Origin: a virus
Direction: 5' to 3' (one strand)
Length of the DNA stretch: 64,000 nucleotides
Virus record (IMG/VR): IMGVR_UViG_3300046171_000225
Location: 99,027-163,026 of that record
The position numbers and the translations under genes were made by a program. Shown piece by piece: positions 4,110 through 35,038 of the stretch (positions are counted from its first letter, which is position 1; every line of letters starts with the position of its first letter). Below the pieces are notes generated by a model. The model was not told the origin of the DNA and did not search any database. It was given only the letters and a program-made list of their open reading frames with translations.

Positions 4110-4838
4110 ATGCTCAAGGCGACTGGCGGAAACTCCAAGCTACGGAAGACCAGCAAGAAGGTGAAGGCATATCTTGAAGAGCATGGCTCTCTGGATGGTT
4201 TCGTTCCACGCAAGGGAGCCTACAGGGTCTTTTCCTTCAACATTCCCGCAGGCGGTTATGAATTGGATGGCAAGAAATATATTACTTGCCCCGGCGCTGG
4301 ACCGTGTCTCGATGTATGCTACGCGAGACAAGGCACTTATCTTTTCAAGGGCTCCAAGAAACTCCGTATTGAGAACCATCAGACTCTCTTGCGTCTGCGT
4401 CGCACCGGAGGCCACGAAGCTGTTGTAGAGGCCCTACAGGGCGTAGTAGATAGCCTTCCAAGGACAACTGCAGTCTTGCGCCTGCATGACAGCGGTGATT
4501 ACTTCAAGGTTTGGTATCTCTCTGCTTGGATTGAAGTAGCAAAGAATAACCCGGACATTCTTTTCTATTGCTACACAAAGAGTATTCCTTTCTTTACTGG
4601 CTTGGACGAGAATACTCCTTCTAACTTCCGAACAACAAAATCTTATGGTGGCAAGTTTGATCATCTGATCGAAGGATCTAACTCTAAAATCTTTGAGACA
4701 GAGGAAGATAGGATCGACGCAGGGTACATTGATGGTAACGATTCTGATATGCCAGCGATTGTTGGCGAAGAACAGATTGGGCTTGTCTATCATGGAGTCA
4801 AGAAGCCTACAGCAGAAAACTTTGCTGCCCTAGCTTGA
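4110..4838 (+). CDS. GP88-family protein
   Basis: This 242-aa protein shows the hallmarks of the phage GP88 family: a Cys cluster (C60, C66, C70 in CPGAGPCLDVCYARQG), RLHDSGDYF (124-132), W140 and FYCYTKS (152-158). Its biochemical role is unknown; the conserved Cys set suggests metal or Fe-S binding. A second, larger member carrying a capsid-type N-terminal tag lies at 19393, so the phage has a free and a tagged version. ATG 4110 follows GAGGTAG. Confidence 0.75.
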   Translation: MLKATGGNSKLRKTSKKVKAYLEEHGSLDGFVPRKGAYRVFSFNIPAGGYELDGKKYITCPGAGPCLDVCYARQGTYLFKGSKKLRIENHQTLLRLRRTGGHEAVVEALQGVVDSLPRTTAVLRLHDSGDYFKVWYLSAWIEVAKNNPDILFYCYTKSIPFFTGLDENTPSNFRTTKSYGGKFDHLIEGSNSKIFETEEDRIDAGYIDGNDSDMPAIVGEEQIGLVYHGVKKPTAENFAALA

Positions 4839-17961: not shown

Positions 17962-18300
17962 ATGAATCTGTACCTGTACAAAGCAAAATTAGATCGTGTG
18001 ATTGATGGAGACACTGTCGATGCTATGATCGACCTTGGATTCAACACTTGGGTACATAAAAGAATACGCTTGCTTGGCATAGATGCTCCCGAGACGCGCA
18101 CCAGGGACCTTGAAGAGAAGGCAGCAGGGCTACAGACCAAGGAACGCCTCACGAGCCTTCTAGAGGCCTCAGGAGGCGAGTTTGTCGTTGAATCTCATGG
18201 TGTTGGCAAGTACGGTCGCTGCCTTGGTACTCTATGGATTGGAGATCAAAATATAAATAATCTTCTTCTTTCGGAAGGGCTCGCGGAGGTCTATGAATGA
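17962..18300 (+). CDS. Staphylococcal-nuclease-like nuclease (TNase)
   Basis: The 112-aa protein has the SNase core: VIDGDTVDA (13-21), RIRLLGIDAPETR (34-46), GKYGRCLGTLW (82-92) and NINNLLLSEGLAE. Arg 36, Asp 41, Glu 44 and Arg 86 line up with the catalytic set. These calcium-dependent enzymes cut DNA or RNA. No signal peptide is visible. It overlaps the lipoprotein gene by 4 bases. Confidence 0.85.
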   Translation: MNLYLYKAKLDRVIDGDTVDAMIDLGFNTWVHKRIRLLGIDAPETRTRDLEEKAAGLQTKERLTSLLEASGGEFVVESHGVGKYGRCLGTLWIGDQNINNLLLSEGLAEVYE

Positions 18301-19340
18301 AAGGTTGGCTTAGAAGCTTATTAATGGTGCTAGTCATTACAGGCTGTGTTGAATGGGACATAGGCGATCCCGCAGATACTACCCCACCTGTTCCGAATGC
18401 TCCGGATATTATAGCCGACCCTGTAGAAGATGTTATCCAGCAACCCGAAAGGAACAAGGTTGATGTTTTATGGGTCATAGACAACTCTGGTTCCATGGAG
18501 CAAGAGCAACAAGCCCTTATTCTAAGCTTTGAATCGTTTATACAATACTTTATTGATTCGGACTTGGATTGGCACATTGGTGTGACCTCAACCGACATGT
18601 CGCCCGGACCCGACCCCGGAATCGGCGGAAAACTTCGGCGATCTGGTGGTCGCGTTTATATAGATGGGGATACACCCAACCCTATCGGTGTATTTTCCGA
18701 CATGGCCGCGATGGGTACAACCGGGTCTGGTACGGAAGAAGGTATTGCGGCCACTTGGTCCGCACTAACCAAACACCGCTCCTGCGAGCACAACTTCGGA
18801 TTTTATCGCGAAGACGCGAAACTGGTCGTGATTGTTATTTCCGATGAAAACGACCATAGCGAGAGTCCCAAATGGTCTGAATGGGTACCCGGAATGTTGT
18901 CCCTAAAGTCAAAGCCCGATGAGATTGCCTTTCATGCCATTGTTTGTACCTCTCCCGGCCCCATAAACGGTATAGGATGCGGTCCTCCTTATTTCGGTGA
19001 TGAATCTGTTGGCTATTTATATATGGACTCTGCTGCGGCCCTAAACGGCTCTGTCTGGGACATCCGACAAAAAAATTGGGATCCCTTTATGTCGGAGTTG
19101 GGTTTGTTGTCGATAGCCCGTCGTCAAGAGTTTTTCCTAAGTTCTGTTCCGGTTGTCGAATCCATTGTTGTGTGGGTCGAAGATGGAGACTGGGAATACA
19201 CCTTTGAGTTGGATGTGGACTTTGGTTATGATGAAATCCGTAACTCTATTTACTTTTATAGTATCCTGCCCCCGGAAGGATCACAGGTTCATATTCAATA
19301 CGTTCCACGGTCGGAAGGACTTGCAGAGAAATATGAGTGA
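18297..19340 (+). CDS. lipoprotein with von Willebrand A domain
   Basis: The 347-aa protein starts with a lipoprotein signal (MKGWLRSLLMVLVITGC, Cys 17). A Pro/Asp linker is followed by a vWA domain: KVDVLWVIDNSGSM holds the metal site D62-x-S64-x-S66, with GTTGSGTEEG and VIVISDENDH further on. Such vWA lipoproteins are frequent in myxococcus-like bacteria, so the gene may come from the host lineage. It should sit on the envelope facing outward or the periplasm, where it could alter adhesion or superinfection; that is inference. It is coupled to the nuclease gene by ATGA. Confidence 0.8.
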   Translation: MKGWLRSLLMVLVITGCVEWDIGDPADTTPPVPNAPDIIADPVEDVIQQPERNKVDVLWVIDNSGSMEQEQQALILSFESFIQYFIDSDLDWHIGVTSTDMSPGPDPGIGGKLRRSGGRVYIDGDTPNPIGVFSDMAAMGTTGSGTEEGIAATWSALTKHRSCEHNFGFYREDAKLVVIVISDENDHSESPKWSEWVPGMLSLKSKPDEIAFHAIVCTSPGPINGIGCGPPYFGDESVGYLYMDSAAALNGSVWDIRQKNWDPFMSELGLLSIARRQEFFLSSVPVVESIVVWVEDGDWEYTFELDVDFGYDEIRNSIYFYSILPPEGSQVHIQYVPRSEGLAEKYE

Positions 19341-19392: not shown

Positions 19393-20991
19393 ATGAAAGA
19401 CATACTGCAGAACTGGAATTCCTACACAGGAAAGGCCAAACTTACAGAATCGCAGAAAAACAAACTTCATGTCAAACACCAAGCACTAAGCAACAACGGC
19501 TCATTAGACTTGATATTTGAGTCTGGTTTTGACAATATGTTCGAATCAGTAGCTAAATGGCAACAATTTTATGAAGATGGCTGCCAAATTCTTGGTAAGA
19601 AGGCAGTATCAGAGGTTTTAAACTACAGGATATGTTTAGAGTCTTTAAAAGAAGCAAGAAAAAAAGACAAAAAACATACACCAATGAACAAGCCGTCTCA
19701 ACAAATTGCACGAATGTATGGCTTGCCGGACATACAGCAGAGCCAAACAGAACCAGGAGCACTAGAGTCTACAGTCGAGTATTTCGAGCGTGTCTTAAAG
19801 ATGGATCTCTCCCCTGAAGAAAGGGAAGGCCTTGAAGACCTTATGCTTGCGATAGATAATGAAGAAGAGGAAAAGAGTCAAGAGGAAGAAAGTGAAGAGG
19901 AAGACTCTTTCGATCCCTTTTCTAACTTAAAAGCTAGAGCTATCGATAAACAAGAAGTCCCTGGCTTCTATGACAGTCCAACAGAGGTTTGTTATTTACA
20001 ACTCTCTGATGAAAATTCAAAGCTTGAGAGTTTGGATATTGTTTCCATGTCTTTACCTGTTGGATATACATGTAAGTATGCTGGGTCTTGTAAAACTTTT
20101 GTAGAGCCATTAGGTAGAGATGAGAAAGGGGACTTCACAACAAAGCTGAGAACAACACCTAAAACGATAACTCACTGTTTCATGGGCGCGATAGAACAGC
20201 GCTCACCAGAATATAGAGCTAAAGTTTGGTATAATGCTTACTTATTAAAGGTGCCATCTGCCGTAAGGTATATGAACAAGGGACTTTTAGACGCTGTCGC
20301 GGCAGATCCAGCTGACATTTCCATGGAAGAGTTGATTATAAGAAGTATAAAAAATTATATGGAACAAAAAGCTAAAAAGATAAAACTGTTCAGAATACAT
20401 GCTGGTGGAGATTTCTTTTCCCAAGAGTATTTTGACGCTTGGTTAGGTGCTGTAAGACATTTTAAAAACATTATTTTCTATGCTTACACGACTTCTCTCC
20501 CTTACTGGTCCGCCCGTGTAAATGATATTCCGCCTAACCTTAGACTGGTCGCATCTGCCGAAACGGCATCTAAGCGAGCTTATAGAGAATCGATCAAAAG
20601 TGCTATTGATTCATTTAGAAAAGTTTACATTAAAGACACTCCTCGGTCAGCTGCTGAAGCCCGATTGCAAATTGACGTCAATGACTTTGAAGCTGTACTA
20701 GGGGAGGGAGATTTTGCATTGTTGCTTCACGGTGCTAGACAAGAAGCAGGAAAAACAGTTGAAATATCCTCTTCCTTTAAAAATCCGGATGGCACAAGGG
20801 ACAGTATGAAAGTTAATGCGTCTACTTTAGCAAAATTTAATTCCAAGTTAATTAAACTTAAGGCTAAACAGTTCCAGACTGACCCAGAAATAGCAGAACA
20901 ACAAATGAGAGATATCCTGATTGCAACAGCCAAATGGCACGAAGAAAGAATGGCTCCTCCAGCCCCTAAGGATGAAGAAGATGACAAATAA
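19393..20991 (+). CDS. tagged GP88-family protein
   Basis: This 532-aa protein starts MKDILQNWNSYTGKAKLTE, a longer form of the tag ending in LTE. A helical, acidic region follows to about residue 190. The C-terminal half is GP88-like: TCKYAGSCK (about 226), THCFMGA (about 259), FRIHAGGDFFSQEYFDAW (about 332) and FYAYTTSLPYW (about 358). It is a distant paralogue of the untagged 242-aa protein at 4110. The pair suggests that one acts from the virion and one after infection. Confidence 0.7.
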   Translation: MKDILQNWNSYTGKAKLTESQKNKLHVKHQALSNNGSLDLIFESGFDNMFESVAKWQQFYEDGCQILGKKAVSEVLNYRICLESLKEARKKDKKHTPMNKPSQQIARMYGLPDIQQSQTEPGALESTVEYFERVLKMDLSPEEREGLEDLMLAIDNEEEEKSQEEESEEEDSFDPFSNLKARAIDKQEVPGFYDSPTEVCYLQLSDENSKLESLDIVSMSLPVGYTCKYAGSCKTFVEPLGRDEKGDFTTKLRTTPKTITHCFMGAIEQRSPEYRAKVWYNAYLLKVPSAVRYMNKGLLDAVAADPADISMEELIIRSIKNYMEQKAKKIKLFRIHAGGDFFSQEYFDAWLGAVRHFKNIIFYAYTTSLPYWSARVNDIPPNLRLVASAETASKRAYRESIKSAIDSFRKVYIKDTPRSAAEARLQIDVNDFEAVLGEGDFALLLHGARQEAGKTVEISSSFKNPDGTRDSMKVNASTLAKFNSKLIKLKAKQFQTDPEIAEQQMRDILIATAKWHEERMAPPAPKDEEDDK

Positions 20992-26385: not shown

Positions 26386-26978
26386 TTCTAACAGAAGAAA
26401 AACTAAAATCAATTATTCTTGATGAGCTACGAAAGACGGTTTTTAAAGAGGGCTTACGTCATCACTACGTCAATCGTGTCCCTGTTCATGAATCTATCTA
26501 TCGTATTGGTTCTCCTTGTTACTTCAATGTAATCAGTCAGGCAAGAGACTTTTATAAGAAGGGCCTCTATGAAGCTGTTAATGAAGAGGAGAGGGACATT
26601 CTAGAGAACACTAACCTTGGTGAATGGGCGATGTTTGAAGGAGAAGAAATCCCTTTGGATTTCCCGATGTATGCGGAGACTCTCGAAGAAGCCAAGAAGA
26701 AAAAGAAGAAAGATCCCCCGATTGGCAAGCCTTCCAGAAACACAGGCTCTGGCAAGAAGTATAAAGTCTTTGTTCGCAACCCTAAGACTGGTAAGATCAA
26801 GAAGATTACTTACGGTGATTCCAAAGGTGGCCTCAAGGGTGGCTGGAACAGCCCTGAGGCTCGTAAGTCATTCGCTGCACGTCATAAGTGTGCCGAGAAG
26901 AAAGATCGCACTAAGGCCGGTTACTGGGCCTGCAGAGCACATAAAGATTTTGGACCAGGAATCGGAAGGTTCTGGTGA
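26382..26978 (+). CDS. basic protein with DUF5872-like C-terminus
   Basis: The 198-aa protein starts MILTEEKLKSIILDEL. A Lys stretch (KKKKKKD) leads to a C-terminal module KKYKVFVRNPKTGKIKKITYGD ... RKSFAARHKCAEKKDRTKAGYWACRAH, which I associate with DUF5872. The function is unknown; the basic, two-Cys module suggests nucleic-acid or metal binding. It is coupled to both neighbours by 4-base overlaps. Confidence 0.65.
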   Translation: MILTEEKLKSIILDELRKTVFKEGLRHHYVNRVPVHESIYRIGSPCYFNVISQARDFYKKGLYEAVNEEERDILENTNLGEWAMFEGEEIPLDFPMYAETLEEAKKKKKKDPPIGKPSRNTGSGKKYKVFVRNPKTGKIKKITYGDSKGGLKGGWNSPEARKSFAARHKCAEKKDRTKAGYWACRAHKDFGPGIGRFW

Positions 26979-27250
26979 TGGATTTTCCCTTCTCTGAAAA
27001 GAAGGTCGGAAATAAACTATTCCTCCGAGAGTTTAGAGAAGATGTAGACTCTGAGGAATTGATTTGGCATCAAGACAAAGAAGACAGAAAGGTCAAGATT
27101 ATTGAAGCTAACGGATGGAAGTTACAAATGGATAATGAACTTCCTGTCTTGTTAGAAAACGGCTCTACTTACTATATACCTGCCTACCATTTTCATCGAG
27201 TAATAAAGGGTAACGGCAGACTACTTATAGAAGTGGAGAAAAGCCCATGA
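26975..27250 (+). CDS. cupin-like small protein
   Basis: The 91-aa product has ELIWHQDKEDRKVKIIEANGW, LPVLLENGSTYYIPAYHFHRVIKG and a final LLIEVEKSP strand, fitting a single small cupin barrel with a His-rich edge. No tag is visible. Homologues in large marine phages are known to me only as hypothetical proteins. It overlaps both neighbours by 4 bases. Confidence 0.6.
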   Translation: MMDFPFSEKKVGNKLFLREFREDVDSEELIWHQDKEDRKVKIIEANGWKLQMDNELPVLLENGSTYYIPAYHFHRVIKGNGRLLIEVEKSP

Positions 27251-27822
27251 AATCACTTCTAGAAAATTGGAACAACTTCCTTACTGAACAAAAATCTTTT
27301 ACAGATAAGGAAAAGATAGCACTTGTTATATTTGGAGAAGCTCGTGGAGAGTCGAACGCTGGAAAGCGAGCTGTTTTGCATGTTGCTATGAATAGGGCTA
27401 AACACGAGGGCAAGTCTGTACTAGAGGTTATGCAAGAGCCGGGTCAATTTTCAATTTTAAATGATAATACTTTTGCTGATATATACAAAGAAGCACAATC
27501 GGGCGATATACCAAAAAAGAAATATGCAGAGAGTCTTGAAATTGTAAGTAATCCTGGAAAAGATATTACAGGAGGATCGACTCATTACCTAACCACAGAA
27601 CTCTACTATGGCAAAAGAAAATGGTGGGCTGACTATGACAAGAATATATGCTGGGTACCCATGATAGAAATAGGAAAGCATGTATTTGGAATTGAGACGG
27701 GCACATACCCGCCACCAGATGGACTTAAATGTGTATATAGCATCGAAAAAGGCAAAAGAAAGTACAATATGTCCACGGTCCCAGCAAGGCACGATTTCGG
27801 TCAGCATCCCAAGCTACCCTAA
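27247..27822 (+). CDS. tagged SleB/CwlJ-like cell-wall hydrolase
   Basis: The 191-aa protein starts MKSLLENWNNFLTE (tag with LTE). The SleB-type hydrolase domain follows: IALVIFGEARGESNAGKRAV with catalytic Glu 31, then HVAMNRAKHEG, VMQEPGQFSILN and ITGGSTHYL. Such enzymes cut peptidoglycan glycan strands. A packaged form could help DNA entry; a role in lysis is the alternative, although no signal peptide is present. It is the best-defined enzyme among the tagged proteins. Confidence 0.8.
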   Translation: MKSLLENWNNFLTEQKSFTDKEKIALVIFGEARGESNAGKRAVLHVAMNRAKHEGKSVLEVMQEPGQFSILNDNTFADIYKEAQSGDIPKKKYAESLEIVSNPGKDITGGSTHYLTTELYYGKRKWWADYDKNICWVPMIEIGKHVFGIETGTYPPPDGLKCVYSIEKGKRKYNMSTVPARHDFGQHPKLP

Positions 27823-27900
27823 CCGTACCGGTGCAACAATAAATAAATGCTTTTTATGAATTATGGGTCTATGTATAGTCCAATGTGGAGGGTCTATACA

Positions 27901-28068
27901 ATGACTTTTATATCAGGGCAAAAAGGTAATGTTGCAGTAGAGTACGGACTTATCGTTTGTTTGCTACTTGCTATTGTTGCTTCTTTATACATAGATGTTG
28001 GCGCAAAAATGAACACCTCTTTGTATACTTTAACAGATGCTATGGGAATTACTAATACTCAAGGCTAA
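27901..28068 (+). CDS. Flp-type pilin-like protein
   Basis: GGAGGG (27887-27892) sets ATG 27901. The 55-aa product is MTFISGQKG|NVAVEYGLIVCLLLAIVASLY and a short tail. This is the Flp/Fap pilin layout: a short leader ending in Gly 9, Glu at +5 followed by Tyr, and a single hydrophobic helix. Host TadV-type peptidases cut such leaders. A phage-borne pilin could enter or block host Tad pili. The match is to a short motif, so a chance resemblance is possible. Confidence 0.65.
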   Translation: MTFISGQKGNVAVEYGLIVCLLLAIVASLYIDVGAKMNTSLYTLTDAMGITNTQG

Positions 28069-28095: not shown

Positions 28096-28602
28096 ATGAG
28101 TGGTTTTAGTTCATTTAAGAATAGTAAACTTTTGTTTGAAAACTGGAGAAGTCATGTCACAGAAATCTCTGACCCAGTAGCAGACAAGTTAGCGTCTATG
28201 AGTGACGCAGAAAAAGAAGAAATGGAAGGCATACTAGATTCTGACGACGACAACGAGGGTTCAATGACCCTTCAGGAAGACGGACACACTGATGTTGCCT
28301 CTGCGATGCGCAAACTTAAGGTTGCCTGTGAGAACGCTCAGGACCTTCTAGAGGTGCTTTCTAGAATGCCACACGAAGGAGATCTTCCCTCTTGGTGGAT
28401 GAGTAAAGCTACGCTCGCTTCAAACTACCTTAGCAAGATGAGAGATTATCTTGTTTACCCTTCAGAAAAGCAGCTTAAACTACCTCTAGAAGAGAAAGAC
28501 GATCCTGTCTCTAAAGAAATCAGTAAGCTGGTCGATAAGGGAACTCCTCACAAGCAAGCTGTTGCAATCGCTCTTGATATGGAAGAGAAAGGTAAGATTT
28601 AA
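28096..28602 (+). CDS. tagged virion protein candidate
   Basis: The 168-aa protein carries the tag 9 residues in: LLFENWRSHVTE. A domain DVASAMRKLKVACENAQDLLEVL ... LPSWWMSKATLASNYLSKMRDYL recurs in large marine phages as a structural-type protein. The end KLVDKGTPHKQAVAIALDMEEKG is a small helical module. It may be a head core protein. AGGAG precedes ATG 28096. Confidence 0.6.
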   Translation: MSGFSSFKNSKLLFENWRSHVTEISDPVADKLASMSDAEKEEMEGILDSDDDNEGSMTLQEDGHTDVASAMRKLKVACENAQDLLEVLSRMPHEGDLPSWWMSKATLASNYLSKMRDYLVYPSEKQLKLPLEEKDDPVSKEISKLVDKGTPHKQAVAIALDMEEKGKI

Positions 28603-33823: not shown

Positions 33824-34685
33824 CATTCGTGGACTTAAAAAAATTATAGAAGTTCTATTAAATGAAAGCGAAGCAGAAAGATCTTCTTTATTAAAGGAAG
33901 ACCAGAATGTTTTTAAGTCTTTTATCAGACATTGCATTAATGAAGTATACCAAGAAGTTGAATCTGTCAATGACAAAATTTCTATTCTGAGAGAGACTGT
34001 CCAAGGGATGCTGAAAGAAGCAGAGGCAACCGGGGGATCCCCAGACGCCCCTTCAGATATCACAGCTATTAACTTTTTAAAGAACCTGTTGAAGAATATC
34101 ATTCCTTCTGTTGAGGAGAGCTACAAAGAACTGACATCGTCCAAGAAACAAAGAGCCTCTTTTAGAAAGCACATCCTAAATGCTACTGAGAACCTACTTA
34201 ACAGCCTGGACGCCAATCCTGAATCTCTAGAAGGTGAGTTAGATGAGCTTAAGGTTAAAGTGGCTGATGAGGAGGGTGACGATACTCCTGAAGGTTTTAT
34301 AGATATCTACGACGGAGAAAAAGATTCCAAAGAAGACAAGAGCAAAGATCCAGAAGAAGAGTTTGCGTCTGGTCTAGAAACCATGGATCTAGATAAGACA
34401 GGCAGAAACTCTGCCTTCGAAACATTTAAGAGAATTCAAAACCAGATTGAGAACGAATATTCTAAACTAGACCCTGATGCTAATGTAGAAGGAAGGAGTG
34501 AAACTGAGAGAGAGATATTTAGAGACTACCTACTCTTAAATATGAAACTTTACTTCGATACCTTTGAAGAAGATCTAAGTGTCGCCCCAGAGGAACCAGA
34601 GACTCCAGCAGAAGACGAGTACATCAGTAAGATGGCAGGTGATGATGATAAAGAATTAATACCTCCTGAAGAAGCTGGGCTGTAA
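33807..34685 (+). CDS. acidic structural-type protein with LLNE tag
   Basis: The 292-aa product starts (MKK)MTNIRGLKKIIEVLLNE; ATG 33807 or 33813. The body is very acidic and helical. It includes FASGLETMDLDKTGRNSAFETF and an acidic C-terminal tail, as in scaffold or core proteins. The next gene begins on its last base. Confidence 0.6.
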   Translation: MKKMTNIRGLKKIIEVLLNESEAERSSLLKEDQNVFKSFIRHCINEVYQEVESVNDKISILRETVQGMLKEAEATGGSPDAPSDITAINFLKNLLKNIIPSVEESYKELTSSKKQRASFRKHILNATENLLNSLDANPESLEGELDELKVKVADEEGDDTPEGFIDIYDGEKDSKEDKSKDPEEEFASGLETMDLDKTGRNSAFETFKRIQNQIENEYSKLDPDANVEGRSETEREIFRDYLLLNMKLYFDTFEEDLSVAPEEPETPAEDEYISKMAGDDDKELIPPEEAGL

Positions 34686-35038
34686 TGGCATGGAAAAAAG
34701 GTGTCAATAGAAAAGGTAAAAATACATACTATAGTATAATAAATAAATTAAAAAAAGAAAAGAAGATAAATAGAGAGTTTGAGATAACAGTCTCTAATTT
34801 ATCACTAGAAGAACTAATAGCACTTAAACTTGAATTGTCAACACAAGCAGTCTCAGGTAAACTTTACGGATTCCAAATATGGGAGAGTTTACCAAAGATA
34901 ATTCAAGAAGCTGCTTTAAAATATGCTGTATCGGCAACTAGAACAGGCACAGAAGCCATGTCTTTTCTCGGTTTAAAGAAAGACCGGTACCACATTTTGA
35001 TGAAGCAGTATGACGTAAACTCCTATTTTGAAGAATAA
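34685..35038 (+). CDS. hypothetical basic 117-aa protein
   Basis: The product begins MAWKKGVNRKGKNTYYSI and has a C-terminal helical domain with AVSATRTGTEAMSFLGLKK. I recall similar small proteins from T4-like cyanophages without known role. No tag is present. Confidence 0.55.
   Translation: MAWKKGVNRKGKNTYYSIINKLKKEKKINREFEITVSNLSLEELIALKLELSTQAVSGKLYGFQIWESLPKIIQEAALKYAVSATRTGTEAMSFLGLKKDRYHILMKQYDVNSYFEE

Follow-up and report, generated by a model that had tools for sequence, protein, structure and literature searches.

The window analysed here is a 64,000-nucleotide stretch of viral DNA, the last 64 kb of the 163,026-base IMG/VR virus record IMGVR_UViG_3300046171_000225, and its plus strand contains a small open reading frame (ORF; 27901..28068) whose product is very probably a true Flp-type pilin precursor. 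The best explanation is that this phage gene encodes an Flp-type prepilin (Tad, type IVb) that would act as a decoy or variant subunit on the Tad pili of the host, a reading to which we give a probability of roughly 0.48. The large terminase of the virus matched 2,806 phage records, 2,179 of them over at least 80% of its length, with Flavobacterium phage immuto as the nearest (46.6% identity), and from these matches we class the virus as a divergent T4-like phage. No Flp match was found in either immuto or Microcystis phage Mel-JY01.

The Flp-like gene and its product

The ORF consists of 55 codons and a TAA stop, and its product, MTFISGQKGNVAVEYGLIVCLLLAIVASLYIDVGAKMNTSLYTLTDAMGITNTQG, divides into a predicted leader of nine amino acids (aa) and a predicted mature pilin of 46 aa, MTFISGQKG|NVAVEYGLIVCLLLAIVASLYIDVGAKMNTSLYTLTDAMGITNTQG. 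The leader (27901..27927) would be cut after Gly-9, at the junction G|NVAVEYG, a site predicted from a Phe and the Gly that are conserved in all five of the phage proteins described below. The mature part (27928..28065), delimited by alignment, has Glu at +5 and Tyr at +6, and in an AlphaFold model with a mean predicted local distance difference test score of 78 a single long helix spans residues 7–47. Thus the protein is short, lacks a globular domain and has a single hydrophobic helix at its N-terminus, as is characteristic of the Flp/Fap pilins. A Shine-Dalgarno sequence, GGAGGG (27887..27892), lies 8 nt 5' of the ATG; an alternative 73-aa frame from 27847 is also open, and the start at 27901 is preferred because the ribosome site belongs to it. 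Direct reading reproduced exactly the 55-aa ORF of the first-pass annotation, together with the strong ribosome site and the leader junction with its Glu and Tyr, and the single hydrophobic helix that it had described is present in the model. A T4-style late promoter candidate at 27838 (AATAAATA) was dropped because the coding strand shows no excess of ATAAATA (8 against 18), and promoter and terminator scans never gave a signal above that of shuffled sequences.

Similarity to bacterial pilins

The top Pfam match of the 55-aa protein is Flp_Fap (PF04964; E 2.9e-4, 21 bits), covering model positions 1–46 of 46, and a search of the whole 163-kb record with this family returned the same ORF as its sole match (E 2e-4). 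A search of PDB sequences up to E 10 returned two matches and no more, both of them Tad pilins (E 0.0098 and 0.049), and a structure search with the lone helix gave no matches. To these we add a profile built from 27 bacterial Flps, taken from the loci of 13 genome records with extra matches in three of those genomes, and searched against 15,337 stop-to-stop ORFs drawn from related viral loci as well as from the window and its record. The window ORF scored 32.0 bits (E 5.8e-8), and the six best scores belonged to this ORF and five ORFs of related contigs (22–34 bits), followed by an ORF at 10.4 bits. Composition-preserving shuffles never reached the real score (0 of 5,000 for each of the five distinct proteins), indicating a specific similarity that goes beyond hydrophobic composition. 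The Flp-type identity that had been claimed for this protein, and for which a profile search had been proposed as the check, is therefore upheld: Flp_Fap is the only meaningful Pfam match, though below the family cut-off, and the match to the bacterial profile is clear.

The closest structural reference is Caulobacter PilA (PDB 8u2b, 8u1k), a member of the Flp/Fap pilins of Tad (type IVb/IVc) pili, which share with the window protein a short leader ending in Gly, Glu+5, Tyr+6, a single N-terminal helix and the lack of a globular domain. The mature proteins are of similar length (45 aa in PilA and 46 aa in the window protein), whereas the leaders measure 14 and 9 aa, and identity is about 28%. 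Unlike those pilins, the window protein is encoded in a T4-like phage without tad genes, and its sequence is divergent enough to fall below the Pfam cut-off.

Related genes in other contigs

Direct searches with the 55-aa protein returned no relative from viral contigs or isolate phages, and queries with PilA and with the protein of contig L128 returned nothing from isolate phages; in both cases low-complexity masking may explain the result, which is not evidence of absence. Because direct searches were empty, relatives were sought by way of the genes around it. The downstream gene at 28096 pointed to related contigs without any Flp match, while those reached through the gene at 26975 contained one, which led on to a conserved 117-aa gene (34685..35038, plus strand, in the window). 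Directly 3' of this gene, five of seven contigs (L123, L124, L127, L128 and L129) carry a Flp-like ORF of 45–50 aa, followed directly in all five by a transfer-messenger RNA (tmRNA) gene. The L123 and L124 genes are identical, so that the five contigs represent four distinct proteins. A wider scan found more contigs with the 117-aa gene and no further Flp matches. In the window neither the Flp-like gene nor a tmRNA adjoins the 117-aa gene; 6.6 kb separate the 117-aa gene from the Flp-like ORF upstream, which comes after a hydrolase gene and thus occupies a different site from the copies in its relatives, and a search of the window's own record for tmRNA found none above threshold.

The junction between the two genes is tight. 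At L128:3005-3490, L129:8389-8889, L123:8407-8864 and L127:8406-8899 the Flp-like gene stops 0–8 nt before the tmRNA 5' end, and in L128 and L129 its TAA abuts the tmRNA; if RNase P processing of the tmRNA 5' end cuts there, the flp message would terminate at its own stop codon. Phage tmRNA genes occur 3' of the 117-aa gene in the related T4-like contigs L123, L125-L129, L150, L158, L162 and L163, and their tag sequences are unusual (ANNNNYELALAA, ANNNNFVLAQAA, ANNNNHFESVRLAA and ANNNAHFDSVRLAA, among others); a literature search for these tags produced nothing useful.

Conserved residues amid rapid divergence

When the five distinct phage proteins (that of the window and four from relatives) were aligned in register, they had little in common beyond the leader Phe, Gly-1, Glu+5 and Tyr+6. 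G|xxxxEY, the prepilin site that comprises Glu+5 and Tyr+6, is thus present in the window protein and in every one of its distinct relatives. A lack of any Flp match together with loss of the G|xxxxE site among relatives had been set beforehand as the outcome that would refute a pilin, and the Flp match and the retention of the site in four distinct related proteins leave the proposal standing. In the Caulobacter Tad pilus structure, Glu+5 of a pilin is hydrogen-bonded to residue +3 and Tyr+6 of its neighbours (PMC11067988).

Divergence is most evident between L128 and L129, in which the Flp-like proteins are 32% identical, compared to 88–89% for the flanking proteins; in the DNA, the flp genes are 51% identical (ungapped, at equal length) and the flanks 82–97%. 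Such a contrast suggests that alleles have been exchanged or that diversifying selection is strong, in both cases sparing residues thought to be relevant to cleavage and filament packing. This is the pattern that would be expected of an arms-race gene, or of one matched to the host, under constraint at its assembly end.

Possible action on host pili

Searches of the 163-kb record, which may be incomplete, gave no match to Peptidase_A24, TadE or T2SSE, and any processing or assembly of the phage prepilin would therefore depend on the host alone. We propose that the prepilin inserts into the host inner membrane during infection, that a host Tad prepilin peptidase of the TadV/CpaA/FppA type would cut it after Gly-9, and that the mature pilin, by means of the conserved Glu+5/Tyr+6 end, could then rival the host's own Flp pilin for the Tad machine. 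It would serve there as a decoy, a cap or a variant subunit and would suppress or alter the Tad pili of the infected cell, and the likeliest benefit would be the exclusion of pilus-dependent superinfecting phages, or reduced adhesion. The first-pass annotation had suggested that the protein blocks Tad pili, excludes superinfecting phages or recruits the pili, and all of these are plausible. We consider it an even bet that the protein works through the host Tad machine, and regard superinfection exclusion specifically as a tentative proposal. It is also conceivable, if speculative, that a group of T4-like phages keeps a hypervariable decoy-pilin cassette, usually flush with the tmRNA gene, that swaps or diversifies its pilin to fit the Tad pilin of the host and that jams or redirects the Tad machine during infection.

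Several observations weigh against a pilin that acts on host Tad pili. The Pfam score of 21 bits is below the curated gathering cut-off of 32.2, and for this reason we call the protein Flp-type or Flp-like and do not name it as a formal member of the family. The bacterial Flps were retrieved with a motif pattern taken in part from the window protein, so that the profile retains some bias towards the motif; the Pfam and PDB matches are unaffected by it. The majority of contigs with the 117-aa gene go without the Flp-like gene, which must for that reason be dispensable, and the gene is recurrent but accessory. Finally, a Tad machine in the host is presumed.

An alternative is a productive pilin, one that joins working host pili and, rather than blocking them, shifts their adhesion or specificity, for example to promote contact or aggregation of infected cells. 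No residue of known importance for processing and packing has been lost, and the mature length is almost that of PilA. The gain for a lytic-type phage is less obvious, however, and in L123, L127, L128 and L129 the mature part is shorter, at 35–40 aa, making a productive subunit unlikely in our view.

Genomic setting and other roles

The gene directly preceding the Flp-like ORF (27247..27822, plus strand) encodes a cell-wall hydrolase of the Hydrolase_2 family (Pfam PF07486, E 9.4e-11). This neighbour, together with the sub-threshold Pfam score, would suit a small membrane protein with a single helix and a different function, such as a holin, an antiholin, a lysis regulator or, as the first-pass annotation had also suggested, a membrane anchor, that resembles Flp by convergence. 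The relatives, however, sit between the 117-aa gene and the tmRNA, and a hydrolase adjoins none of them, so that the conserved endolysin pairing expected of a lysis gene is missing; a lysis role is weakened accordingly, and we rejected a holin as the main explanation. Moreover, the helix varies among the phage proteins but the leader Phe, Gly-1, Glu+5 and Tyr+6 do not, and a holin would have no need of these four residues; nor would convergence in composition readily account for scores that shuffled sequences never match. We judge a different membrane function to be improbable.

In close relatives of the stretch around the Flp-like ORF, other genes occupy its place, and the site consequently looks like an exchangeable slot. 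An accessory gene at a site unlike that of its relatives, for which no close homolog was found, might be a hitchhiker acquired from a host with no current role, but the intact frame and ribosome site, and a motif that all five phage proteins retain despite their great divergence, where decay would not have spared just those residues, make this very unlikely.

Other features of the window concern its gene content more broadly. An N-terminus of the type MKxLLENWRxYL recurs in several proteins that have no other relation to each other (window 15863, 17062, 19393, 24646 and 27247, and L120:11914), among them the hydrolase that precedes the Flp-like gene, where it is written MKxLLENWxxFL; this N-terminus is possibly a capsid-targeting tag. 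The phage encodes two proteins of the GP88 family (PF17338), at 4110-4838 and 19393-20991, and the latter bears the shared N-terminal tag. A lipoprotein-like protein at 18297-19340 has a vWA-type motif (DVLWVIDNSGSM) and no Pfam match at 1e-3. Lipoprotein-like proteins of this kind are frequent in Myxococcota and Bdellovibrionota, making it a possible clue to the host.

Relation to known systems and significance

Flp pilin genes have been described in temperate prophages: in those of V. harveyi (phi345) they were reported as candidate virulence factors (PMC12482185), and they are listed in Sinorhizobium phiLM21-like prophages (PMC12429752). We also found near-canonical Flp genes adjoining terminase genes in temperate-phage contigs (L196-L198, L201, L205-L208, L210 and L216), where they are moron-like insertions, mostly on the opposite strand, and score 59–79 bits, well over the Pfam cut-off. 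The temperate cases resemble ours in that a Flp-type pilin is encoded in a tailed phage with the remainder of a tad locus not evident nearby, whereas the window gene comes from a T4-like phage, and hypervariability and tmRNA linkage mark its relatives. No account of a phage-encoded pilin in a T4-like phage was found in the open-licence literature, and the T4-like, largely tmRNA-linked, divergent and hypervariable group looks like a novel form of the Flp genes already known from temperate prophages. Superinfection exclusion by inactivation of a pilus ATPase is known in phages (PMC11436027). D3112 Gp05 and DMS3 Aqs1, described in that work, share with our proposal the outcome of lost pili and the exclusion of further phages; both inactivate the PilB ATPase, whereas the window protein would mimic the pilin itself, and in a Tad system.

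If true, a pilin mimic supplied by a phage would represent a route to the control of a widespread adhesion machine other than the disabling of the pilus motor. The fast-changing versions in related viruses suggest that these phages interfere with the host pilus machine, or feed into it. With few residues kept amid rapid change, the phage Flp-like proteins offer a natural test set for how the Tad system reads its substrates, and they make pilus-based competition between phages testable.
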